From Flavihumibacter soli (GTDB lineage Bacteria > Bacteroidota > Bacteroidia > Sphingobacteriales > Sphingobacteriaceae): a stretch of 64,000 bases of DNA. The stretch spans positions 124,001 through 188,000 of the forward strand of contig NZ_JAAFZB010000091.1 of NCBI RefSeq assembly GCF_010692725.1, given 5' to 3'. The translations under genes were made by a program, and so were the position numbers. Below the pieces are notes generated by a model. The model saw only the letters and a program-made list of their open reading frames with translations. It had not been told where the DNA came from and searched no databases. This document shows positions 1,622 to 44,009 of the stretch, piece by piece (the first letter of the stretch is position 1; each line of letters begins with the position of its first letter).

Positions 1622-4192
1622 TTAGTGTTTAATAAACCGGGTTTCACCCAACGATTTTCCATCTTTTACTGACCTGAATCTTGCAATGTAAATGCCCGGA
1701 GATAGCCAGCTTACATCAACAGTGTTTTTGTTGCCTTTGCTAACAGTGCCCCCTTTTTCCTTCCGTCCATGTATATCGAAGATCAATACCTGAACCGGAG
1801 ATTCTGCTAGTGCTTCTAAATTAAAGAACAACTCATTCATAACCGGGTTAGGATAGATTGGTACTGAAGAGATTGCACTTTCCGGAGTGCTGATCTTTTC
1901 CTTTAACCTAAAAATTAAAGACAAGCGTTTTTCACCAAATGATGCAGGGTTATTCTTATCAATTTGAAAGCAGTAAGATGATTTCCCTCTTACTTCAGTT
2001 AATTCATTCTGACGATAGGCATCCTTCAAAAAGACCGACATGGGCGATTCAGAAATATCTTTAAAGTTTAGGCTGTAAGTACCTGAAGCAGCAGCATTAA
2101 TAGATAAAGGTATTTCGCTTACCTCGGCAATATCCGGCATAAAGTTTATAGCAACATTTTGTCCATCATTAGTCAGGGTAGATAGTGACACTGAACTCCC
2201 AGCAAAATAAACGGCGTCACCTGATCCGTATTTTGAATCAAAACCCTGGTCAAATACAATTATGGCTTCATCTGCATTAGTATTATCGCTTAACTCGATA
2301 CGAATATGATTTTGCATTCGCGAATCTTTCACTATATGACCAGAAGAACCCTTGGATAACTCATTTTTTTTTGTCGGCTCGCTCAATAAGCGCGCAGGTA
2401 AAGACAATACGCTTTTGCAACTTTCTGTGAAAGTGACTGTTCCTCCACCCGGTTTGGCCCTAACGTAAAATCCCTGGCCTGTTTGTATATTTGGTAAACC
2501 AGATTCAACACTGTTGTCACTCGATGTCGAAGTGCTTTTAGGTCCTCCATTGGTTACATAGCCATTGCTATATGTAATCATTCCGCCGCCAGGCTTGATT
2601 ATAGAAACAATATTTTCCATGTTAATCTTATCCACAAGTTCCCAATTAATAGTAGAAGGATAGGGATTACCGATCAAATGATAACCGTTATAAGCTGCGT
2701 CTTTGCTGTCCTCTGTTCTGTTAGTATAAGTTAGAATGGATGCGGGGATGATGACATCACCTTTGTTTATTGGTCCGGTATATGTTACCGCAAAGCTTTC
2801 AGGTATGGCATAGGGAGGATTAAGTTTGTTGAATATATTAGTTGTCCGGTCTCCCCTGAAATTCAAAAAGAAACCTGATCCCGGAGATACAGGTTTACTA
2901 AGATCCATAATAGCAGTAAACTGGGCAGCCGATCCATCCTTAATACTAGCCAGTTCATTATATTGGAACAAGGCTGGTGCAGAACCGGGATAATCAAACT
3001 CACCAATTCCGCTACCTGTAATAAATACATATTTCTGCAATTGCTTAAAAAACGGCAGTGAAGCACCGGTGGTAACCGGGGAGGAAAGAGTTCGGGTACC
3101 GCGCATGCCTATGCCTCCTGTAAAGAAAGTTTGCACATTAACATCCCCCAAAACGTCGCCTGACGATTTAAGCGTATTGATCCCGGCATTTTTATCAGAC
3201 GTACTTATCAGGGTAAGAAAACCATTTGAACTCATTTTACCGGATATTACATTTAGCTGTTCCGTAATATTCAATGAATTGGCGAGAGTAATGGTACGGC
3301 CTGAAGTCCTGTTAAGATACAGGTATTTTAATGACCGTTGATCCTCATCTCCGTACGGATTAAACCGTAGCGTAGCATCCCCTCCTGATCCCTTAATATA
3401 CAACTCCGATTGACCGGACCCCGTGATAAAACCTACTGGGTTGATGGTAATTCTTGCATTTAGATAAAGTTTCCCACCATTAATATTTAAAGAATTATCA
3501 GCTCTGATATCTAACGAACCGCTTAATGCAATTGAGTGACCGGAAGGAATTGTTACCGGGCCGGCACCAGCAGCCCTGACAATATCTAAATCCTGCAGCG
3601 TATAATTTGAAGAGTCGCTTTGTGAAAAACTTAAATAAACCGGTGCACTATCGTTTCCTCGGAGTGTAAGGCTTGACGATGTCCCGCTGAACATTAAGCC
3701 ATGGCAGACAAGCTTCCCTGGCGTCGGGGTAATTCCGTTTTGACCAATTGTCATTGTCGCATCAGACGGTAATGTTATTTTTGACCCCGTCTCAATATAA
3801 AGCTCTTTTAACACTGTAAAGGAATTTTGAAAAACTACTCCTGATGATCTCGTAACATTAATTGCCCTGAAGTGGGTTAGGTTTTTAAACCGCAGCGAAT
3901 TGATTGGCTCGCCAAAGCCACTGATCAGCAGATCAGAATTATCAGAGCCAGCCAGAGATCCGTCCCCAAACAGGTCCTGACTAATCTCCAGGGAATTATA
4001 AGGTCCAAGATCAAGTATGTCGGTATTTTTTAATATGGTGATTGTCCCAGTAATGGAAACCGTATTTGAACTGGAAGAACTACTCATCGCCACTGTTTTG
4101 AGATCTGGTTTATCAATAACCAGGGCGGGATAAATATACCTGGCGCCATCAGCCGGGAGAACAGCACTCTCCGATCCATTAAATACAAACAA
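1622..4192 (-). CDS. T9SS type A sorting domain protein, downstream fragment of a frameshifted gene
   Basis: Main part (about 856 residues) of a secreted protein. It holds beta-solenoid-like filler, a module beginning GTRTLSSPV and continuing through YHLIGNPYPSTINWE and NVAINFMPDIAEVSEI, and a C-terminal T9SS type A sorting domain with YPNP, VLIFDIHGR and LSPGIYIARF, ending ETRFIKH. The sorting domain directs export across the outer membrane by the type IX system, with cleavage and often A-LPS anchoring. The apparent start MFVFNG is not a real N terminus: the same frame reads back as SSFNTNNRRSNTLFVFNG and joins the upstream fragment if one C is added at 4232-4236. The restored gene would be 1030 residues. 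Unlike its two neighbours, it lacks the FnIII-like EIERSxDG segment before the sorting domain. Confidence 0.75.
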   Translation of the reverse strand: MFVFNGSESAVLPADGARYIYPALVIDKPDLKTVAMSSSSSSNTVSITGTITILKNTDILDLGPYNSLEISQDLFGDGSLAGSDNSDLLISGFGEPINSLRFKNLTHFRAINVTRSSGVVFQNSFTVLKELYIETGSKITLPSDATMTIGQNGITPTPGKLVCHGLMFSGTSSSLTLRGNDSAPVYLSFSQSDSSNYTLQDLDIVRAAGAGPVTIPSGHSIALSGSLDIRADNSLNINGGKLYLNARITINPVGFITGSGQSELYIKGSGGDATLRFNPYGDEDQRSLKYLYLNRTSGRTITLANSLNITEQLNVISGKMSSNGFLTLISTSDKNAGINTLKSSGDVLGDVNVQTFFTGGIGMRGTRTLSSPVTTGASLPFFKQLQKYVFITGSGIGEFDYPGSAPALFQYNELASIKDGSAAQFTAIMDLSKPVSPGSGFFLNFRGDRTTNIFNKLNPPYAIPESFAVTYTGPINKGDVIIPASILTYTNRTEDSKDAAYNGYHLIGNPYPSTINWELVDKINMENIVSIIKPGGGMITYSNGYVTNGGPKSTSTSSDNSVESGLPNIQTGQGFYVRAKPGGGTVTFTESCKSVLSLPARLLSEPTKKNELSKGSSGHIVKDSRMQNHIRIELSDNTNADEAIIVFDQGFDSKYGSGDAVYFAGSSVSLSTLTNDGQNVAINFMPDIAEVSEIPLSINAAASGTYSLNFKDISESPMSVFLKDAYRQNELTEVRGKSSYCFQIDKNNPASFGEKRLSLIFRLKEKISTPESAISSVPIYPNPVMNELFFNLEALAESPVQVLIFDIHGRKEKGGTVSKGNKNTVDVSWLSPGIYIARFRSVKDGKSLGETRFIKH

Positions 4193-8713: not shown

Positions 8714-11700
8714 TTATTGCTTAATCAATTTCAACCGATGCAAAATTGCCTTATTGCTGACACCTACAACCTCTACAATGTAAACACCACTGAGCAACTC
8801 GGAGATATCCTGGGTTATTACAGCCGAATAATTAGTAAATGTCTGTGACTTTATTTTTTGACTTTTAACATCATATATATTAATTTGAAGGGGTTGATTA
8901 TCAGCAAAATCGACCTTTAGGCTAAAGTCGTTACTCGCTGGATTCGGATACAAAAAAATACCCCTGCTAGTTATTTTAACGTAGTTAAGGGATATGACTT
9001 CGGAATAAGTGAATTCGCATTGATCATTAACTTGTTTTAATCGATAATAGTTGATTCCTGTTTTGGGTGTTTCATCCGAAAATAGGTAATCGAGTTTTTT
9101 TGAGGATGTTCCCCCTCCATCAGTAGTTCCTATTTTGGCGAAAGACACTCCGTCCTGCGAGCGTTCAATTTCGAAATAATCATTATCAACCTCCCCCCCG
9201 GTACTCCATTTCAACTGAGAACCTTTTTCAACCACCACACCGGTGAAGCTTAGATATTTTACAGCAGGAACTTTTTCAAATACAAGCTTGAAACGGTTTG
9301 CTCCGAAGGTTAGAGCATTGGAGCGATCAACTGCAAATTCATAGATCGGTTTTTCCTTTAGGTTTGTCAGGCTGTTAAGTAAACTATCCTTCAATAAAAT
9401 GCGATAATTATCTATTGAGTTGATGCCGGTAAAACTCATTTTTAGAGTCCCGTTTGCATTAGAATTTACAGTCAGCCCTATTTCCTTAACTTCCTTAATA
9501 TCCGGCATGAAGTTAATTGCGACATTCTTACCGTCGCTGGTCTGGCTTGACATGGAAACAGAACTTCCGGCCAGGTAAGTGGCATCTAACCGTCCAAATT
9601 TGGCATCAAACCCCTCCATAAATACGATCGCTGTTTCATCAGCATTAAACTTATCCTCCAATTTTACTCGCAAGACCTTAGTTTCTGATGAACTTTGATT
9701 TAAGGGGCCACTCGTTAACAATCGCGGCGATGGAAGAACCGCAGAAATGGCTTTGGCATTCTCCTGAAATCTTATAAACGAGCCTGTACCTCTTGTTCTG
9801 ACATAAAATCCTTGTCCAGGCTGAATATAGAATGGCGTTTCCGGTGTACTGTTAGGGTTAGCAATGCTTGTTCCTGCTGGCAAAGCTCCCAGTCCACCGT
9901 TAGTAACAATCCCGCCGCTGTAGGTAAGCATACTACCACCCGGTCTGATTATTGCAACCATATTCTCGACGACCGAATTATCGGATCTAATAACCTGGGT
10001 CCAGTCAATTATTGATGGATACGGGTTTCCCACCAAATTAAAACCGTTATATTCAACATCCCTGAGACCAGCATTCGGGGTATATGACAGGTCCGTTCTT
10101 ATATCTCCATAATTTATTGCCCCTTTATATGTTATGGCCATGCTTTCAGGCGTGTCGTAAGGAGCTACAACTTTTGAACCTGTTGCTGTATTATTATCAG
10201 ACCTGTCACCGCGATAGAAAAGGAAAAAGCCAATACCTGGAATCATGTTGTTATTAATATCTGAAACAGGATTATATTGGGCTAAAGCTCCCTGATCAAA
10301 TCTCGCTGCCTCCTTATATGTATATAGTGTTTCCGAAGAAGGATCCGGAGCAAACACATCAAATCCCCCGGTTCCTGAACCGTTAATAAACATATTACTT
10401 TGCAGTTGCTTAAAGCTAGCGTCGACTACCGGAGAAGACATGGTTCTGGTCCCTCTGTTAGCGTTTGTAGAAACGGAATTTGTAGCAGGTCCACCAGTGA
10501 TCCATGATTCGACGTTAACTATACCGCTCACAGCTGCTCCCGCGAAAAGGCTTCCGATATTGGATGTGGTTGTTGCTGTTGAAACCATTGTTAAAAAACC
10601 ATTTGAAGCCAATGTACCTGCGGTTGGAATAATATTACCGATCACATTTAGAGTGTTGGCCAGATCGATTGTTTTCCCCGCACAATCAAAAGTCAGATTC
10701 TTCAGCGCGTTCGAAATCCTCGGTAAAGTCGGATCAAACTTTAACGAGGTGGTAAAGGAACCATGTACTATCAGCTCGCTATTTGGGCTGCCGATTATAG
10801 AGCCATTCATTGTGATGACGGATGAGACTGAATTACCCAGGGTTAAAGTTCTTCCATTCAAGTCAATCGTTGCATTGCCTTGAAGATCAAAATTATTCGA
10901 TCTAAAATCCACGTCCAATCTTGGGAAATTTCCATTGCCCACCTGTGGAATGATCACACTTGCATCGTTTGGCGGTATTCCACAAAGCCAGTTTGCCGCA
11001 TTATTCCAATTATTATTAGGAGCGCCGGCTCCGCCTGTCCATACATATCCACTTTTTATATAAAGCAGGAGAGTATTATTCGCGGCCGGATTTATCGAAC
11101 AGCTCACAGAATTAGCAGTCACTGTTATGCTGTTAATGACCAGCGACTGCCCGTCATTTGCTGCTGTTACCGGCGCCTGGAAACTTCCGGCACCGACGGC
11201 ATCGGCGGATATGTTAACCGTTACAGGCGAACCACCGCCGATCTGGTATACCACTGTTGTTATACTGTTCGCCAGCAGACCGCTTACATTAGCCGTGAGA
11301 TTCATTGTTCCGGTTACATTGCAGAGCGGCGAAGACGAAATAGAGCCCAGGGTTGGCCGCGGGTTTACAATTAATGTTGTTGAGTTATTCGTCGAAAAGT
11401 TTTGACTGCACCCAGGTCCACCATTGATGCTACTGCTAATGGTGGTTATCGTTAAAAGTTTGCCGTTATCTGCAAATGTTACCGGAATTTTAAAACTGCC
11501 GGTTGTTCCAACTGAGGTAACACTGGCTGTGCCACCAACACCGTTGATATTATAGGTTATTGTTGAAATGCTATTATTGAGTAAGCCATTTAACGTAATT
11601 GTAGAGTTTGAACCGCTGCATACAATATCCGATGAGACGCCGCTTAATGTCGCCAGCGGATTCACAGTGACCGTAATTTGGGCCGTTTTGGTACATGCGG

Positions 11701-14700
11701 GTCCGCTGGTGGCAGTTGCCGTAACTGTATAAGTGGTTGTGACCAGAGGATTAGCTGTCACTGTATTTCCCGTTGTAGAAGATAAACCAGTAGAAGGGCT
11801 CCAGGAGTACGTATATGATACGTCACTTGATGCAGTTAAAACCGTACTGCTTCCTATGCAAATGTTATTAATACTTGATCCAAATGTTATTGCCGATGTT
11901 CCTAGAACCAAATCTTTTGCTTTTCCCTTATCAGGATAGGTATAGCTACATCCTCCGGATGAGATTGTTAATGTATAACAATTACCTTCACTTCCGACAG
12001 GAACGATATAAGTAGGCTGGTTTGAAACACCCGGCGCAAAATGCGGATTACCACAATTTCCTATTGACTCATTCCATTGATAAGTAAAATTCCCATCCCC
12101 ACCGGTTGGAGTGCCCGTTGCTTGTAACATAATACCACTTCCTGAACAAGTGGGAACTGCAATCCAGGTGCTGGTATTCGGAACAATGGCCGCACCTATA
12201 GAAACTGTAGTTGATGTAGTAAATATTGAGCAGCCGCCTGCAGCTGCTATAGTATAAGTTATTGTGTAAACACCCCCTGTGCTGGTACTCGGTGTAATTG
12301 CACCCGTGGCACTGCTCAACGTCAGTCCAACAGGACTTGCGTTATATGTTCCGCCGGCAGTTCCTGTCCTGGTAACCGGGGCAGTTCCAATAAAGCTTGA
12401 CTTGCAAAATGGTCCTGCATAACTTATTGTCGCTGTCGGTTGTGCAGTAACTGTTATAGTACCGGTTAATGAATTATTGACACAGGGGCTGGAAGTGGTA
12501 ACAGTATAGTTAAATGTACCCGATGCGGTGGGTGTCCCGCTGATCGTAAATACACCCGCGCTGAAAGTACCGGTAACTCCTGCAGGCAATGCCCCTGCGG
12601 TAATGGAAGCACCTGTTCCTCCGCCTCCTATTGCATAAGTAATATTTGTTATGGCTGTATTAATGCATTTGGTCTGAACATTTGTCCCAGCTGCTGATGA
12701 TAATGAAATAGTAGAATTGGGGGTAACTGTAAGAGAGCCGCTTACTGAATTACTAATACAGGGGCCTGTAGCGGTAACAGTGTAGTTAAATGTTCCTGAT
12801 GCGCTCGGCGTTCCACTAATCGTAAATACGCCGGCATTGTAGGAGCCGGTAACACCCGCAGGTAATGCACCCGCTGTAATGGATGCTCCTGTACCACCGA
12901 TTGCATAAGTAATATTTGTTACGGCCGTATTGATACATTTAGTCTGAGCATCTGTTCCCACTGCTGACGATAACACAATGGTTGCGTTCGGATTAACGGT
13001 AATAGTTCCGGTTATTGAATTATTAACGCAAGGACCCATAGTGGTAACAGTATAACTAAATATTCCCGATGCACTGGGTGTTCCGCTGATCGTAAATACA
13101 CCCCCGCTGAAAGTACCGGTAATTCCTGCGGGCAATGCCCCCGCGGTAATGGAAGCACCTGTTCCTCCACCTCCTATTGCATAAGTAATATTTGTAATGG
13201 CCGTATTGACACATCTGGTCTGAGCATCTGTTCCGGGTGCTGATGATAATAAGATAGTAGAATTGGGAGTAACTGTAAGAGAGCCGCTTACTGAATTACT
13301 AACACAGGGGCCTGTAGCGGTGACAGTGTAGTTAAATGTTCCTGATGCGCTCGGCGTGCCGCTGATCGTAAACACACCGGCATTGTAGGAGCCGGTAACA
13401 CCCGCAGGTAATGCACCCCCTGTAATGGATGCTCCTGTGCCACCGATTGTATAAGTAATATTTGTTATGGCCGTATTGATACATTTAGTCTGGGCATCTG
13501 TTCCGGCTGCTGACGATAACACAATGGTTGCATTAGGATTAACGGTGATAGTTCCGGTTATCAAATTGTTAATACAAGGGGATCCTGTAGTAGTAACGGT
13601 GTAGTTAAATACTCCCGATGATGTTGGTGTTCCACTGATCGTAAATACACCCGCATTGAATGAACCCGTAACACCCGCCGGTAACGACCCGGCCGTAATG
13701 GAGGCGCCTGTCCCACCGCCCGCGATGGAATAGGTAATATTTGTTATAGCATTAGCTATACAAACTGTTTGTGTACTTGTACCCGCAGCTGATGATAAAG
13801 TGATCGTGGAATTGTCATTAACAGTTATGGTTCCGGATATAGAACTATTATTACATGGCCCGGTAGTGGTAACGGTGTAATTAAATATCCCCGGAGCTGT
13901 AGGCGTTCCGCTAATAGTAAAGACACCGGCGCTGTAAGCACCGGTAACACCAGCCGGTAGGACGCCCGCTGTAATGGATGCTCCTGTACCACCTCCAATT
14001 GCATAAGTAATATTTGTTATGGCCGTATTGATACATTTGGTTTGGGCATTTGTTCCGGCTGCTGATGATAACACAATGGTGGAATTAGCATTAACGGTTA
14101 AAATTGCAGCATTAGACAACACCTGTGAACAGCTTCCACCAGTACCGCTGACCACTACATCATAATTACCTGAATTGGCTGTTGAAGAACCGGTAATAGT
14201 TAAGGTTGCCGTGTTTGCGCCTGAAAAATTCCCTCCTGAAACCGGAATACCATTTCTTCTCCACACATAACTGGCAATACTCCCGGATGCCGCTACTGTG
14301 AAGCTCACATTGGAGCCTTCACAGAGAGTTTGAGAAATTGGCTGTGTGGTAATGGTTAGGCTTTGATTAACTGTCAATTGGGCATTCGCAGAAGTGACCG
14401 GGCTACAGGGCGCAGCCCCGGTTACTACTACGGTATAAATACCGGACTGCGATACAGCTGCCTGGCTTATGTTTAATGTGGCCGAAGTGACACCGGAAAT
14501 GACTCCTGGGATATTAGACAAAGGATTTCCATCCTGATACCATTGATAGGTTAAACCCGTGCCGGTTGCTACGACTGAAAAACTAACCGGAAAACTTGAA
14601 CAAACCGATTGAGAAGCTGCGGGCTGTGTGGTTATTGCAACCACCTGATTTACAACCAGGGCCACCTCTGAAGAAGTTACAGGTGCACACGGACCAATGC

Positions 14701-17700
14701 CGGTTACTAAAACACTGTACATGCCAGCGTCTGCTCCTGTAACACTATTAAGCGTCAACGTTGTTGATGTGGCGCCAGCAATATTAGCACCACCCTTTCT
14801 CCATTGATAGGTTAGTCCCGTACCAGTGGCTGCCACACTAAATGTCGCCGTACTTCCTGCGCATAAAGTTTGAGTAACTGGCTGATTGCTAATGGCAACA
14901 ACCTCGTTCACTACCAAAGCCGCATTTGAGGAGGTGACAGGAGCACAAGGGCCCGTGCCCGTAACTACTACATTATAATCGCTGGCAGCATCGCCAACGG
15001 TAACGGGATTAAGCGTCAACGTCGCTGCCGTTGCTCCGGCAATATTGGTTGTTCCTTTCCGCCATTGATAGGTAAGTCCGGTACCTGTTGCCGCGACAGT
15101 AAAACTTACTGTGCTACCTGAACAGGTTGTTTGAGATGCTACCGGCTGAGCGGTAATAGCTACCACCTGGTTAACGACCAATGCTGACGTTTGGGAAGTA
15201 ACCGGTGTACAAGGACCAATGCCGGTCACCACAACAGTATAATTACCCGCATCTGCTGTTGTTATGTTATTAAGTGTCAATGTAGCGGATGTGGCTCCGG
15301 GAATATTAACACCCGCTCTTCTCCATTGGTAACTAAGCCCGGTACCCGTAGCTGTAACGCTAAAGGAGGCAGTACTACCTGAACACAACGTTTGAGTGGC
15401 GACGGGTTGATTGGTAATGGCAACAACTTCATTGACTACCAAAACCGCATTACTTGAAGTAAGCGGCGTACATGGACCAGTACCTGAAATGACCACATTA
15501 TAGTCAGTTCCTGAATCCGCTACTGTAGCGGAATTAATGGTTAATGTTGCCGAGGTAGCTCCGGGAATATTGGTTGTCCCCCGTCTCCATTGATAAGTTA
15601 GTCCCGTCCCGGTAGCAGCCACCGTGAAATTCACCGCGCTTCCGGAACAAACGGTTTGTGTAGCTATTGGCTGAGTCGAGATGGCAACAGCCTGATTAAC
15701 AATCAATGCGGCGGCAGATGAGGTCACGGGAGTACAGGGGCTTGTGCCACTCACTGTTACTGTGTAATTGCCGGCATCGCCTGTGGTAATATTATTGAGA
15801 GTGAGTATAGATGAAGTGGCCCCGGGTATATTAATCCCGGCTTTTTGCCATTGATAGCTAAGGCCTGTTCCTGTAGCGGCAACACTGAATGTCGCAGCAC
15901 TTCCAGAGCATAAAGTTTGGGTGGCGACGGGCTGACTGGTAATTATCGGTACTTGATTCACAGTTACGGTGAGCTGTGCCGTTCCGGCCACAGCTGGTGT
16001 ACAATTACCGGCTGGCAGATTTGTAGTTACAAGAAGATTGACATTCCCATTTAATATCGTTGGAGTATAAGTGGCACTTACAGTAATTGGATTAGTGCCG
16101 GCTGTAACTATGTTGGAGAAAGAACCGCTTGGCGCACTCCATACAGCGCTAGTAGCATTGCCGGTCAATGTGGCTACTACGTTTATTGATTGACCGGAAC
16201 ATATTGATTGGTTTGATCCGACAGTTACACCTGCAAATCTATTCACACTAATACCGAAAGTCTGCGATACAGCACTGTTGCCGCATGGATTAGAAGCTAC
16301 AACCGTAACAGGTTGATTATTTGAAATACTTGCTGCTGCTGTTATATTAACCGTTACTTGATTTCCTGATTGGGAGGCAATTACAAATCCCGGGGGGAAT
16401 GTCCAGGTATAGCTCGTTGCAATCCCGCTTGAAAGATTTCCAGCAGTATAAGTTTGAGATGTGACAGGACAAACTGAATTATTTCCACTAATCCTTCCTT
16501 GGCTCCCATTGGAAAAACTGGGCGCACCTGTATAAACAGTCATGGCTACAATATTACTTGTAGCAGTGGCTGGAGAAGCACAAGGAGCGTTGGATGTTAG
16601 AACAACTGATATTGATGACGGGTTACCTAAAGAACTGGTAGTATACGTTGCCCCTGTCGCTCCCAAAATATTAACTCCATTCCGTTGCCATTGGTATGTG
16701 GGCATAGTACCTCCGTTTGTAGGCGTAGCCGTAAAGGTTACCGGTGTCCCGGAACTGGCACATATCGATGTCGAGGATGCGGATATCGTCACCGAAGGTA
16801 CCAGTACAGGATTGACCACCACAGAGGTGGCTCCTGCTAAACTCGTACACCCATTCACTGTGATCGTTACACTGTATGTTCCAGCCATCGCTGCTGTTGC
16901 ATTGTTAATTACCGGAGTCCGGGCAGAACTGTTAAATCCATTCGGCCCGGTCCAGGAATAAGTAGCTCCGGCTACAGTGGGGGTAGTTAAATTAATAGAG
17001 CTACCTTGACAAACAGGAGTATTACTGCTCGCCGTCGGTGTCGCCGGAATTGGATTGACTACAACAGTGGTTGTGCCAGCCGGGCTAGTACAACCATTTA
17101 CGGTTATGGTTAAACTATACACCCCGGCCATTGCAGCCGTTGAACTAGCGATTGTGGGATTCTGCAGGGTACTACTAAAACCATTTGGCCCGCTCCAGCC
17201 GTATGTAGCGCCAGCAACTGCCGCCGTCGAAAGATTAATCGTCCCACCCGCACAGACCGCACTATTACTGCTGGCAACCGGTGTTGCCGGCACTGCATTG
17301 ACAACAACGGTTGTTGTGCCTGCGGCGCTTGTACAACCATTTACAGTGATTGAAACACTATAAACCCCCGCCATTGCAGTCGTAGCATTTGAGATCACGG
17401 GATTCTGAACCGTACTTACGAAACTATTTGGCCCGGTCCATGAGTAAGTCGCTCCTGTAATAGCGGCCGTCGATAAATTAATGGTACTGCCCACACAAGC
17501 CGGACCGCTACTATTTGCTGTTGGTGTGGCTGGAATGGCATTAACCACCACGTTTGTCGTCCCCGCCAGGCTGGTACAGCCATCTAAGGTTATGGTGACA
17601 CTATATACACCAGCCATGGCTGTTGTCGAAGCTGGAATAACAGGATTCTGATCGGAACTGGTGAAGCTATTAGGCCCGGTCCAGGAATAGGTAGCGCCGG

Positions 17701-19150
17701 CTACTGTAGGAGTGCTTAAGCTAATTGCACTACCTGCGCAGATTGCACCGGAATTTGAAGCCGTCGGTGTTGGCGGTAAAGAATTTACGATAACGGAAGT
17801 GGTCCCTGGCAAGCTTGCACAGCCGTTTACTGTTACGGTCACACTATAATCGCCGGCCATTGCAGAAGCTGCGTTGACAATCGCTGGATTTTGAAGAGCA
17901 CTGGTAAAACCGTTTGGTCCGGACCATAAATAGGTAGCGCCGGCTACAGCTGGTGTAGTTAAGTTAATTATGCTGCCTGCGCAGACCGGTCCGTTGTTGC
18001 TAGCCGTTGGAGTTGCAGGAATTGGATTTACTACAACTGTAGTAATTCCTGCTGTACTTGTACAACCATTTACCGTTATCGTCACCCTATAAACGCCGGC
18101 CATTGCAGACGTTGAGTTTAAAATAGAAGGGTTCTGATCAGCACTGCTGAAGCCGGCCGGCCCAGTCCAGGAATAAGTAGCGCCTGCCACTGCAGGCGTG
18201 CTCAAATTAATTGTACTGCCCTCACAGATCGGGCCGCTATTTGACGCTGTTGGCGTTGCAGGGATATCGTTTACTGTTACGGCGACTGAATTGCTTGTGG
18301 CCAGGCTAGTTGTAGTACAAGGAGCATTCGATGTTAAAACCACCGTAACAACACTACCGTTTGTTAAGTCGGAAGCGGTAAAAGTAGAGCTATTTGCTCC
18401 CGTAACGTTTAGGCCATTGATCTGCCATTGATATAAAGGAGCTGACCCTTCATTGGTGGCTGAGGCAGTGAAGGTAACCGGGCTCCCCGCACAAACCGGC
18501 CCAGCAGGGTTTGCCGAGATATTTACAGTTGGAGTCAAAGCCGCAAACAATGACAGGGAACCAAAATTTGTACTTGCCGTTATACCATTAAATCCGCTTG
18601 AACTACTTGAGGTTATATCACCGCTTGCTGATGTTGAGGTCGTTGCCTGAACCTGTAGCCCAATAATCGTGAATGCATCCAAAGCATTGACGTTGGCACC
18701 TGATACATTAATTGTTAAGGATGAAGAAGTTAAGCCGCCAGCAGCTGTGGTAACCGAAGTGATATCAGTTCCGGATGAGGAATATGCAAGAGTGGACGAT
18801 GTATTAAATTGCCAACCGGCCGGTGCATTGAGTGTTAATATTAAATCCGTACCGGTAAATGCAAAGTCACCGTCGGCTGTTTCAGCGATTACTATGTTAC
18901 CCAGAGTTGTATAGCCTGCTGCACTCCCTCCTACTACCAGATTGCTGCAAATGGACGTTCCGTTCGTTGGTGCTGTAACGGTCGTTTGGCCAACCGCTGA
19001 AAAAGCGGATGAAATGAGAACTAATACTAAAAGGAATAGCTTACCAAAGAAATTAAACTTCTCCAAAGCTTGAAACCCAAAAAATCCTGATAAAGACAGG
19101 TTTTTATTGGAAGTGCCGTATAATTTGAAAAGTGGTGTAGAAATTTCCAT
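8714..19150 (-). CDS. Giant T9SS type A sorting domain protein with Ig-like and putative-Ig tandem repeats
   Basis: 3478 residues, the largest complete gene here. A long N terminus leads into a hydrophobic export segment (KLFLLVLVLISSAFSAVG, about residues 37-55). Then follow: a unique beta domain; six about 81-residue repeats (PATPTASNSGPICEGSTINL type); a unique region; seven Ig-like repeats of about 87 residues (ITxQPVATQTLCSGS ... SYQWRR); six He_PIG-like repeats of about 91 residues (NSTIVLSSAAGT ... FTISGTP ... FNYTVTTTGPC); further Ig-like units; a GYVWTGGAGAPNNNW domain near residue 2700; the NRGTRTMSSPV module shared with the two neighbours; an FnIII-like segment (DYFEIERSQDG); and the sorting domain (LYPNPASNDF, LLSGVYIVEV). 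Each Ig-type repeat carries one or two Cys. Likely a surface filament or adhesin. The exact start is uncertain. Confidence 0.85.
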   Translation of the reverse strand: MEISTPLFKLYGTSNKNLSLSGFFGFQALEKFNFFGKLFLLVLVLISSAFSAVGQTTVTAPTNGTSICSNLVVGGSAAGYTTLGNIVIAETADGDFAFTGTDLILTLNAPAGWQFNTSSTLAYSSSGTDITSVTTAAGGLTSSSLTINVSGANVNALDAFTIIGLQVQATTSTSASGDITSSSSSGFNGITASTNFGSLSLFAALTPTVNISANPAGPVCAGSPVTFTASATNEGSAPLYQWQINGLNVTGANSSTFTASDLTNGSVVTVVLTSNAPCTTTSLATSNSVAVTVNDIPATPTASNSGPICEGSTINLSTPAVAGATYSWTGPAGFSSADQNPSILNSTSAMAGVYRVTITVNGCTSTAGITTVVVNPIPATPTASNNGPVCAGSIINLTTPAVAGATYLWSGPNGFTSALQNPAIVNAASAMAGDYSVTVTVNGCASLPGTTSVIVNSLPPTPTASNSGAICAGSAISLSTPTVAGATYSWTGPNSFTSSDQNPVIPASTTAMAGVYSVTITLDGCTSLAGTTNVVVNAIPATPTANSSGPACVGSTINLSTAAITGATYSWTGPNSFVSTVQNPVISNATTAMAGVYSVSITVNGCTSAAGTTTVVVNAVPATPVASSNSAVCAGGTINLSTAAVAGATYGWSGPNGFSSTLQNPTIASSTAAMAGVYSLTITVNGCTSPAGTTTVVVNPIPATPTASSNTPVCQGSSINLTTPTVAGATYSWTGPNGFNSSARTPVINNATAAMAGTYSVTITVNGCTSLAGATSVVVNPVLVPSVTISASSTSICASSGTPVTFTATPTNGGTMPTYQWQRNGVNILGATGATYTTSSLGNPSSISVVLTSNAPCASPATATSNIVAMTVYTGAPSFSNGSQGRISGNNSVCPVTSQTYTAGNLSSGIATSYTWTFPPGFVIASQSGNQVTVNITAAASISNNQPVTVVASNPCGNSAVSQTFGISVNRFAGVTVGSNQSICSGQSINVVATLTGNATSAVWSAPSGSFSNIVTAGTNPITVSATYTPTILNGNVNLLVTTNLPAGNCTPAVAGTAQLTVTVNQVPIITSQPVATQTLCSGSAATFSVAATGTGLSYQWQKAGINIPGATSSILTLNNITTGDAGNYTVTVSGTSPCTPVTSSAAALIVNQAVAISTQPIATQTVCSGSAVNFTVAATGTGLTYQWRRGTTNIPGATSATLTINSATVADSGTDYNVVISGTGPCTPLTSSNAVLVVNEVVAITNQPVATQTLCSGSTASFSVTATGTGLSYQWRRAGVNIPGATSATLTLNNITTADAGNYTVVVTGIGPCTPVTSQTSALVVNQVVAITAQPVASQTTCSGSTVSFTVAATGTGLTYQWRKGTTNIAGATAATLTLNPVTVGDAASDYNVVVTGTGPCAPVTSSNAALVVNEVVAISNQPVTQTLCAGSTATFSVAATGTGLTYQWRKGGANIAGATSTTLTLNSVTGADAGMYSVLVTGIGPCAPVTSSEVALVVNQVVAITTQPAASQSVCSSFPVSFSVVATGTGLTYQWYQDGNPLSNIPGVISGVTSATLNISQAAVSQSGIYTVVVTGAAPCSPVTSANAQLTVNQSLTITTQPISQTLCEGSNVSFTVAASGSIASYVWRRNGIPVSGGNFSGANTATLTITGSSTANSGNYDVVVSGTGGSCSQVLSNAAILTVNANSTIVLSSAAGTNAQTKCINTAITNITYAIGGGTGASITAGVLPAGVTGAYSAGVFTISGTPTAPGIFNYTVTTTGPCNNSSISGTITVNDNSTITLSSAAGTSTQTVCIANAITNITYSIAGGGTGASITAGSLPAGVTGSFNAGVFTISGTPTSSGVFNYTVTTTGSPCINNLITGTITVNPNATIVLSSAAGTDAQTKCINTAITNITYTIGGTGASITGGALPAGVTGSYNAGVFTISGTPSASGTFNYTVTATGPCVSNSVSGSLTVTPNSTILLSSAPGTDAQTRCVNTAITNITYAIGGGGTGASITAGALPAGITGTFSGGVFTISGTPSASGIFSYTVTTMGPCVNNSITGTITVNPNATIVLSSAVGTDAQTKCINTAVTNITYAIGGTGASITAGALPAGVTGSYNAGVFTISGTPSASGTFNYTVTATGPCISNSVSGSLTVTPNSTISLSSAAGTNVQTKCINTAITNITYAIGGGGTGASITAGALPAGVTGTFSAGVFTISGTPTASGTFNYTVTTSSPCVNNSLTGTITVTAQPTATISYAGPFCKSSFIGTAPVTRTGTAGGTYNASPVGLTLSSATGAITPSTSTGGVYTITYTIAAAGGCSIFTTSTTVSIGAAIVPNTSTWIAVPTCSGSGIMLQATGTPTGGDGNFTYQWNESIGNCGNPHFAPGVSNQPTYIVPVGSEGNCYTLTISSGGCSYTYPDKGKAKDLVLGTSAITFGSSINNICIGSSTVLTASSDVSYTYSWSPSTGLSSTTGNTVTANPLVTTTYTVTATATSGPACTKTAQITVTVNPLATLSGVSSDIVCSGSNSTITLNGLLNNSISTITYNINGVGGTASVTSVGTTGSFKIPVTFADNGKLLTITTISSSINGGPGCSQNFSTNNSTTLIVNPRPTLGSISSSPLCNVTGTMNLTANVSGLLANSITTVVYQIGGGSPVTVNISADAVGAGSFQAPVTAANDGQSLVINSITVTANSVSCSINPAANNTLLLYIKSGYVWTGGAGAPNNNWNNAANWLCGIPPNDASVIIPQVGNGNFPRLDVDFRSNNFDLQGNATIDLNGRTLTLGNSVSSVITMNGSIIGSPNSELIVHGSFTTSLKFDPTLPRISNALKNLTFDCAGKTIDLANTLNVIGNIIPTAGTLASNGFLTMVSTATTTSNIGSLFAGAAVSGIVNVESWITGGPATNSVSTNANRGTRTMSSPVVDASFKQLQSNMFINGSGTGGFDVFAPDPSSETLYTYKEAARFDQGALAQYNPVSDINNNMIPGIGFFLFYRGDRSDNNTATGSKVVAPYDTPESMAITYKGAINYGDIRTDLSYTPNAGLRDVEYNGFNLVGNPYPSIIDWTQVIRSDNSVVENMVAIIRPGGSMLTYSGGIVTNGGLGALPAGTSIANPNSTPETPFYIQPGQGFYVRTRGTGSFIRFQENAKAISAVLPSPRLLTSGPLNQSSSETKVLRVKLEDKFNADETAIVFMEGFDAKFGRLDATYLAGSSVSMSSQTSDGKNVAINFMPDIKEVKEIGLTVNSNANGTLKMSFTGINSIDNYRILLKDSLLNSLTNLKEKPIYEFAVDRSNALTFGANRFKLVFEKVPAVKYLSFTGVVVEKGSQLKWSTGGEVDNDYFEIERSQDGVSFAKIGTTDGGGTSSKKLDYLFSDETPKTGINYYRLKQVNDQCEFTYSEVISLNYVKITSRGIFLYPNPASNDFSLKVDFADNQPLQINIYDVKSQKIKSQTFTNYSAVITQDISELLSGVYIVEVVGVSNKAILHRLKLIKQ
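12441..14092 (-). repeat. Six tandem He_PIG-like repeats inside the giant T9SS gene
   Basis: Six units of about 270-280 bp encode the pattern LSSAAGT-QTKC-INTAITNITY-GTGASITAG-LPAGVTG-FTISGTP-NYTV-GPC. The last four form two near-identical two-unit blocks: the phrase AACTGTAAGAGAGCCGCTTA occurs at 12725 and again at 13271, a 546-base (182-codon) period. Confidence 0.85.
14093..15957 (-). repeat. Seven tandem Ig-like repeats inside the giant T9SS gene
   Basis: Seven units of about 258-280 bp encode ITxQPVATQTLCSGS ... TGTGLTYQWRR ... GATSATLTLN ... YTVVVTGTGPCTPVTS. Units alternate: the second and fourth share GTTNI and DYNVV, while the first, third and fifth share DAGNYTV or DAGMYSV, indicating duplication of a two-unit block. 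Confidence 0.8.
16810..18268 (-). repeat. Six tandem 243-bp Ig-like repeats inside the giant T9SS gene
   Basis: Six consecutive 81-codon units, close to 6 x 243 bp in total, encode IPATPTASNSGPICEGS ... AGATYSWTGPNGF ... AMAGVYSVTITVNGCTS ... TTVVVN. Their regular length and high identity mark expansion by unequal recombination or slippage. Confidence 0.85.
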
Positions 19151-19927: not shown

Positions 19928-20166
19928 AACTAAGGTGATTTAGAACACATTAGACTAACGAAAAAACGAACCGCTGGTTTTTACAGATTTAAAAAAACTG
20001 AAAATTTTTTAAAAATTTCTTAATCATCCAGGTGGAAAATACTTGGAAAGCCAAAACCCATGTCAGTATATCACACATTATTCTCACTGATCGCCGATAG
20101 GAGGTTCGCTCATGCGCCTTAACGTTTTTGACCCGGTTTACTTAGGACTTGCTTAGACCAAGTTAA

Positions 20167-20214
20167 GGTTAGTCCACTAATTTAGCGGACTAACCACTAG
20201 CTGACCTAAACAAG
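20167..20214 (+). other. Hairpin element A with conserved CTGACCTAAAC tail
   Basis: GGTTAGTCC (20167-20175) and GGACTAACC (20187-20195) form a perfect 9-bp stem with an 11-base loop, followed by ACTAG and CTGACCTAAACAAG. A second copy at 43836-43883 keeps AGTCC/GGACT, AATT in the loop and the CTGACCTAAAC tail while changing both stem ends together. The sequence ends 8 bases before the ATG at 20223. Nature unknown. Confidence 0.5.
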
Positions 20215-20222
20215 AGCACTCC

Positions 20223-20564
20223 ATGATACTAACAGTTCGGTTAACAACTACTGCTTCGGTTCAGACCCTCATGGCCTTTGGGGAAGGGAACTTTTTGGAC
20301 CCAATTTTCGTAATAAAAATTAGGGCTCTCTACCGAAGCCTCCCTGCATTTATGGAAAACATTATTGAAACCCTGGTTATAAGTTACGGTACCGGCTCAT
20401 GGCACCATACAGGCAACTTTACCACGAACGAAAGTGGTTCGAAACAATTTCTAGTAAAATATCCTGATTCTCACGGTCCGCAGGAAGAGTATGATGTTCG
20501 CGTTAGCACTCATAATTACGGGGATACAACGGCCTATGAGATTTCACCTGGAATCCGACTGTAG
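20223..20564 (+). CDS. Possible small hypothetical protein
   Basis: An open frame of 113 codons from ATG 20223. An inner ATG at 20352 would give 70 residues (start MENIIETLVISYGTGSWHHT), which reads more like a protein: mixed charged and polar, with GSKQFLVKYPDSHGPQEEYD. The first 43 codons look unconvincing. No family is recognised, and no ribosome binding site is clear, which is common in this phylum. It directly follows hairpin element A. It may be a real small gene with the inner start, or chance. Confidence 0.3.
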   Translation: MILTVRLTTTASVQTLMAFGEGNFLDPIFVIKIRALYRSLPAFMENIIETLVISYGTGSWHHTGNFTTNESGSKQFLVKYPDSHGPQEEYDVRVSTHNYGDTTAYEISPGIRL

Positions 20565-43765: not shown

Positions 43766-44009
43766 CGGTATCTAAGCCGGGGCTCAGGCCATCAAAGGCC
43801 TGAACTTTACTACAAATGGTTCATACCATGTTCGGGTCAAGTCCATGAATTAATGGACTTGACTACTACCTGACCTAAACGAGTCCCCAGCATGGCTAAT
43901 TATTTTTTACTTTTTACAATAAGGATCTTTAGACTATCCAAAACATTTATACGCAGGACGATAGCATAAATATGTTACTCGCCTGGCGATCCGTGTTCCC
44001 CGAACTCAT
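43766..44009 (+). other. Intergenic stretch with hairpins, no larger gene
   Basis: It holds a short hairpin (CAGGCC/GGCCTG near 43785-43802), element B (43836-43883) and a run of AT-rich sequence. A 25-codon frame (start MANYFLLFTIRIF at 43892) follows element B but has no supporting evidence of being real. Confidence 0.4.
43836..43883 (+). other. Hairpin element B with conserved CTGACCTAAAC tail
   Basis: GTCAAGTCCAT (43836-43846) and ATGGACTTGAC (43853-43863) form a perfect 11-bp stem with loop GAATTA, followed by TACTACCTGACCTAAACGAG. The tail and stem core match element A at 20167, but the stem ends differ in both strands (GTCA/TGAC versus GGTT/AACC). Confidence 0.5.

Follow-up and report, generated by a model that had tools for sequence, protein, structure and literature searches.

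A palindromic repeat family with inverted 11-bp word arrays in Flavihumibacter soli and its association with a gene for an unannotated protein

The analyzed window comprises 64,000 nucleotides of the Flavihumibacter soli genome (assembly GCF_010692725.1, contig NZ_JAAFZB010000091.1, positions 124,001 to 188,000 of the forward strand). It hosts two related hairpin elements, A and B, with the following parts (window positions; model matches refer to the covariance model of the repeat described below).

20139..20223, + strand: element A, whole match to the 85-column repeat model (89.9 bits on the + strand, 67 bits on the - strand)
20145..20166, + strand: element A, two left 11-bp words
20167..20195, + strand: centre of hairpin A, GGTT-AGTCC...GGACT-AACC, from sequence and folding (GGTT 20167-20170, core AGTCC...GGACT 20171-20191, AACC 20192-20195)
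20196..20217, + strand: element A, two right 11-bp words, including the tail noted in the initial annotation
43807..43892, + strand: element B (B subtype), whole repeat-model match (42.8 bits; E 5.8e-7 in the genome)
43814..43835, + strand: element B, two left 11-bp words
43836..43863, + strand: centre of hairpin B, GTCA-AGTCC...GGACT-TGAC, from sequence and folding (GTCA 43836-43839, core 43840-43859, TGAC 43860-43863)
43864..43885, + strand: element B, two right 11-bp words, containing CTGACCTAAAC

The model matches on both strands identify element A as a palindrome. The initial annotation had described A and B as similar hairpins, and both were recovered at these positions with folding exceeding that of dinucleotide shuffles (A: z -4.67, 0 of 200 shuffles as good; B: z -3.79, 1 of 200). 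The tail CTGACCTAAAC follows both hairpins and, allowing at most one mismatch, occurs four times in the window compared with 0.95 expected, a number reached in 0 of 100 shuffles. Its exact form was found four times in the whole genome, namely at A, at B, in an inverted setting at a further copy (L003) and at L004, where no palindrome adjoins. Matches to the repeat model up to an E-value of 10 were restricted to A and B within the window. Since this model, built from A-type copies including A and leaving out B, retrieved B at E 5.8e-7, the two elements are homologous and their reported similarity is not due to chance. Beside element A lies a minus-strand ORF of 3478 aa (8714-19150), and a putative 113-aa ORF (20223-20564) begins at its right end; no relationship of the latter to the linked protein introduced below was found.

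Extension of the analysis to the whole genome yielded 52 sites of the pattern AGTCCN{8,14}GGACT and 96 sites of its backwards control, so that this count alone is no evidence. The A group pattern AGTCC[AG]CTAA[AT]TTAG[CT]GGACT was present in 25 exact genome copies, with 0 for the control and 0 in 59 relatives, and the B group follows AGTCCAT-N6-ATGGACT. Alignment of 26 A-type and 10 B-type copies revealed a repeat larger than the hairpin, carrying on each side two to three consecutive 11-bp words drawn from a small vocabulary including TTAACATGACC, TAAACAAGACC, ACTAGCAGACC, TTTACCTGAGT GCTACATGACC and others, with lag-11 identities of 0.41 and 0.46. A and B are two subtypes of one palindromic repeat family, each with flanking inverted 11-bp word arrays, and the outer-stem exchange of GGTT/AACC for GTCA/TGAC sets these two subfamilies apart. 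Among the A copies, the word CTAG opens one half in 24 of 26 (right half in 11, left half in 13, with the loop oriented AATTT), and therefore loop and arm orientation look independent of each other. One stem mismatch, A.C on one strand and G.T on the other, is kept in 21 of the 26.

The covariance model search and copy count proposed in the initial annotation were performed with 37 A-type copies over 85 columns, resulting in 133 genome matches at E<=0.01, which correspond by hand count to at least 73 distinct loci. Of 849 candidates, 150 were scored with rough E-values, and a gene-linked copy (L083) is missing from the matches, hence the 73 loci are likely a lower bound. The claim of more than chance twins holds accordingly, the contrary outcome of no further copies anywhere not having occurred. 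The repeat model gave no match in 200 other genomes of the family, searched with stricter filters and 22 candidates scored per genome, leaving the own genome as the only one out of 201. The copies are intergenic, 34 of 36 being clear of ORF calls of at least 90 aa and two B copies (L027, L037) touching one, and they reside in 20 tandem, 8 convergent and 7 divergent gene gaps (35 classifiable, own tally). The best mutual matches of solo copies extend approximately 30-60 bp from the core in both directions, i.e., their homology ends with the palindrome.

Four loci (L003, L026, L039, L046) share sequence up to ~250 bp beyond the palindrome, consisting of a leader and the 5' end of a gene that opens with MAIQLNT.Y.GRIED.IYYERLGDYLIRT. 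This gene encodes an unannotated protein of ~230 aa and is present in four full copies in the genome, the others being 59, 54, and 35% identical to the first, as well as in one 31-codon fragment spanning profile positions 1-30 in a profile search of the own loci. All four full genes and the 5' remnant (L080-L084) possess one palindrome each, whose end lies 75-95 bp upstream of the start codon. The palindrome of the divergent copy L083 is B-like (28 bits, E 1e-4), those of the other gene copies are A-type. At one locus (L052/L081), a second, C-terminal fragment of the linked family (profile positions 195-230) was observed behind the full gene.

A profile of the four own proteins matched 106 of 301 genomes of the family (own genome included) in 13 of 25 genera. 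The homologue loci were collected from the profile search (29), by position (40, with L171 lacking an ORF) and from 21 named loci of Pedobacter, Desertivirga, Pararcticibacter, Parapedobacter, Arcticibacter and one Sphingobacteriales MAG; on the named contigs, searching with the four own proteins yielded no relative, whereas searching with 16 homologues gave these 21 loci. Removal of duplicates, proteins below 150 aa and rows without a start reduced 93 entries to 70. A strict AGTCC...GGACT hairpin within 600 bp upstream was detected for 26 of 48 genes of the YR subfamily, two of six unclassified genes and one of the four own genes, the rule being too strict for the own variants, and for none of ten genes of the MARQ/MTKQ subfamily. 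It was missing upstream of the remaining 22 YR genes, some of which have variant caps, e.g., AGCCC, TGTCC, or AGTCT. Downstream flanks contained no strict hairpin (0 of 19 for YR, 0 of 35 across all subfamilies). The profile of the four own proteins also recovered a sister subfamily with the signature MARQ...IIKLKGTIGD (L118, L124, L125, L132, L134, L136, L140-L142), which is without the AGTCC hairpin (0 of the ten MARQ/MTKQ genes).

The 11-bp periodicity recurs in 28 gene-linked elements (26 YR and two unclassified), with lag-11 identities of 0.43 on the left (z 13.7) and 0.39 on the right (z 10.4) and a lag-22 identity of 0.38 on the left (z 9.1), the z values being inflated by near-identical elements kept in the set; a control region farther upstream reached 0.26 at lag 11. 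For the arm comparison, elements more than 70% identical were removed, reducing 26 to 20. The left arms agreed better with the reverse-complemented right arm of the same element than with those of other elements, with 0.605 vs 0.441 for 11-mer 1, 0.477 vs 0.362 for 11-mer 2, 0.450 vs 0.353 for 11-mer 3 (p 0.003) and 0.595 vs 0.448 for 11-mer 4, and none of 5000 permutations reached the values for 11-mers 1, 2, and 4. A better match within the element was likewise seen for the five inner bases (0.71 vs 0.495), which are slightly favoured by the hairpin choice. The compensatory change proposed for A and B is thereby strongly borne out across genera, where the arms covary within an element, and only weakly inside the own genome. 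There, GGTT/AACC is nearly fixed in the 37 A copies and double changes appear at three core pairs (5, 5, and 2 copies), the two fives being the same AGGCC...GGCCT copies and thus perhaps one event. Over the 41-pair palindrome, pairing amounted to 64.2% in comparison to 64.1% after shuffling the 3' letters among copies (234 of 500 shuffles as high), and the covariation score was reached by 54 of 500 shuffles. This pairing, no better than shuffled, counts against a strong covariation within the genome.

Comparison of close paralogues within six genomes allowed the edges of the palindrome-plus-gene unit to be placed by hand. The shared blocks measure ~1.07-1.75 kb. Their left edge lies ~35-55 bp outside the core in most paralogue sets (the arm being 44 bp), ~74 bp outside in three copies of genome G105 and 123 bp outside in a 98%-identical Desertivirga pair, and their right edge ranges from ~120 bp before to ~420 bp after the stop codon. 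By eye, no target-site duplication was evident at these edges. Among 18 genus relatives with the atpG locus, the 3' flank was visible in 17, one ending at the contig end; these flanks (330 nt) are not syntenic with the window and showed no such palindrome by eye, and as a consequence they prove neither insertion nor loss and provide no empty site. In G105, noncoding tandem repeats of varying number were found directly behind near-identical gene copies (L247, L248, L250), at about 2620-3150 of the oriented sequence.

Arcticibacter pallidicorallinus, like the window's genome a member of the Sphingobacteriaceae, possesses a scattered set of its own that is independent of the one in the window's genome, with 40 AGTCCN{19,21}GGACT sites, 36 of which keep at least three of the next four pairs. 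The backwards control gave 34 sites, and hence the palindromic fraction rather than the count is the evidence. Among the matches listed, the corresponding numbers of sites and palindromic sites were 12 and 10 in G122, 12 and 8 in G072, and 10 and 5 in G025, compared with 13 and 4 in all for six genomes without a homologue in the profile search. Twenty of the 40 A. pallidicorallinus sites, all on contigs C1-C6, were fetched; two loci already known to bear the gene, family-unlike or contig-end sites and later contigs were excluded. Seven of them adjoin a full gene, one a 5' remnant (profile positions 1-30) and 12 neither, i.e., no homologue within 1.5 kb. Conservation of these elements fades ~45-60 bp from the core, and both arms carry TTATATG/CATATAA. 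Sphingobacteriaceae harbour a gene-linked palindrome class of conserved design, the solo copies of which occur in at least two genera, the window's among them; in two genera, solo copies coexist with gene-bearing and 5'-remnant ones. A general dispersal across gene-bearing genomes was considered and dropped, since 400-kb samples of two such genomes contained 0 (G105) and 1 (G092) AGTCC hairpins, making solo spread a property of some genomes only. The 5' remnants of F. soli (L084/L026) and A. pallidicorallinus (L299) both end at about profile position 30, which may reflect chance or a preferred break point.

The linked protein gave only sub-cut-off matches in Pfam and NCBIfam, no match at E<=1 in PHROGs and PADLOC, and no sequence match in the PDB. 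For the homologue from P. puniceum, an AlphaFold2 model computed together with 20 relatives (pLDDT 75, pTM 0.70) predicts N-terminal strands and helices followed by a beta-sandwich. With this model, Foldseek returned no hit at E<=0.001 against the PDB and viral models, and in a DALI-like search the Z-scores did not exceed 5.5, the matches being assorted beta-sandwiches. The structure matches gave no clear pointer to a transposase or nuclease fold, although, being weak or absent, they do not exclude one. The RDxHD motif seen in the long homologues was considered as possibly catalytic and discarded, inspection by eye showing it not to be conserved among the short proteins of the own genome. A description of the A/B repeats or of the linked protein family was not found in the open-licence literature.

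Based on these data, we regard A and B as probably being solo copies of a dispersed, non-autonomous element derived from a palindrome-plus-gene mobile unit. The gene-bearing form would comprise the palindrome, a leader and the gene for the unannotated protein of ~230-400 aa, the palindrome itself being designed as a central hairpin capped by AGTCC/GGACT with inverted 11-bp word arrays on its flanks. Copies would have arisen by transposition-like copying, with the hairpin possibly acting as extruded or single-stranded DNA that is recognised during replication or by a recombinase, a mode of action suggested for REP/REPIN. As partner of the palindrome, the linked protein might bind its arms or be cargo, rather than being the cutting enzyme. 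This reading is favoured by at least 73 own loci compared with none found in 200 other family genomes, by the palindromes upstream of all four full own genes and of 26 of 48 YR genes, and by the periodicity, the arm covariation and the A. pallidicorallinus site counts. It is weakened by the lack of duplications by eye and of an empty site, by the 22 YR genes without a strict hairpin, by the sparse hairpins of G105 and G092, and by own-genome arms not covarying beyond the core. That no mobilising enzyme for the A/B palindromes was found likewise counts against it. A farther-reaching and rather doubtful version is a new mobile system, in which the unannotated protein would recognise the 11-bp arrays and drive or license a host enzyme to copy units and solo palindromes, resembling REP with a partner other than a Y1 (HUH) transposase.

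REP/REPIN palindromes, which go with RAYT genes (REPtrons), are described as short, intergenic, species-specific and scattered, with subtypes and with copies beside the associated gene (PMC3116915, PMC6006769, PMC3733652). The A/B elements share this way of life, including scattered intergenic placement, subtypes and copies beside a gene, and the REP-like character suggested in the initial annotation stands in this respect. A classical REP/REPIN family mobilised by a Y1 (RAYT/TnpAREP) transposase of the own genome would also fit the conserved stem mismatch (21 of 26) and the one-sided CTAG (24 of 26 A copies), reminiscent of REP feet and bulges, as well as the three Y1 genes of the genome:

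G000:C92:26810: Y1 (RAYT-like) gene (L020)
C96:384800: Y1 (RAYT-like) gene (L021)
C96:914354: Y1 (RAYT-like) gene (L022)

However, these are single genes, each surrounded by its own distinct palindromes (GTTCCTAACGGAAC, GCCCCTACGGGGC, CTCCGCCTTTTAAGGCGGAG), and no A/B element was detected at the three loci up to E 10 with the repeat model, for which reason the reading as recognition hairpin of an IS200/RAYT element was rejected. Furthermore, GT[AG]G at the 5' foot of the hairpin, typical of REP, is not conserved in the 26 A and 10 B copies; GTAG occurs on the minus strand of the window's B, and the other B copies lack it. The elements thus live in a REP-like manner, yet both the GT[AG]G foot and a Y1 gene with the same palindrome are missing, rendering this explanation quite improbable. 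Instead of the foot they possess the AGTCC/GGACT cap and the 11-bp word arrays, and their linked gene is no recognised Y1 transposase and is multi-copy together with the palindrome, whereas REPtrons are stated not to move as a unit (PMC6006769). An element acting at the RNA level, with a transcript hairpin that terminates, stabilises or regulates and might also control the linked gene through its leader, would agree with the strong folding and with the palindromes upstream of linked genes in several genera, but is unlikely given that most own copies have no linked gene and that Rfam, applied to the window and 12 tested loci, returned at gathering score two tRNAs only. Copies occupy tandem, convergent and divergent gaps alike, and without an orientation bias in the 35 gaps a terminator was set aside; the proposal of a small RNA or fixed cis-regulator is accordingly not upheld.

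The 11-bp phased inverted words on both sides of the palindrome could alternatively be read once per helical turn by a chromosomal DNA-binding protein in the manner of parS or matS sites. This is just as improbable as Y1-driven mobilisation, considering that each genome has its own set of copies, that other gene-bearing genomes contain few or none, and that the gene-linked edges behave like those of a copied unit. MITE-like derivatives of an ordinary DDE insertion sequence ending in the A/B palindrome, with the linked gene as captured cargo, would account for the excess of solo copies over genes (73 loci vs four full genes) and for TTATATG/CATATAA on both arms in A. pallidicorallinus. The linkage of the palindrome to the same gene family in several genera speaks against them, and they are the least likely explanation. 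In common with MITEs, the A/B elements are small and non-coding, contain inverted repeats and could stem from a larger unit with a gene; they differ in being almost wholly palindromic, in showing no target duplication by eye and in a parent gene without a recognised transposase family. Integron attC sites are imperfect palindromes in which certain positions stay unpaired, each gene having one such site, and the A/B elements resemble them in these features, but the end boxes of attC were not seen. A gene-cassette array was set aside, given that the palindrome lies upstream of the gene and that its copies occur singly and dispersed instead of in arrays.

REP-type palindromes are usually ascribed to Y1 transposases, and families without one, e.g., the CGTC-tagged repeats, form a standing puzzle; the CGTC-tagged repeats are reported also from Bacteroidetes, with no dedicated transposase found for them (PMC3733652). 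The A/B elements are palindromic like these repeats and differ from them by a consensus without the CGTC tag and by a specific linked gene family. They tie a palindrome class across several genera to one uncharacterised protein family, offering a defined protein and its DNA counterpart for assays of binding and mobility, and would represent a new kind of system if the linked protein proves to be the mobilising partner. In addition, the AGTCC cap, the inverted 11-bp word arrays and the linked gene together define the class by sequence and can be used for annotating unlabelled repeats and multi-copy genes of Sphingobacteriaceae. The backwards control pattern TCAGGN..CCTGA, with 96 sites in the own genome and 32-62 in four genus relatives, is perhaps another abundant inverted repeat.
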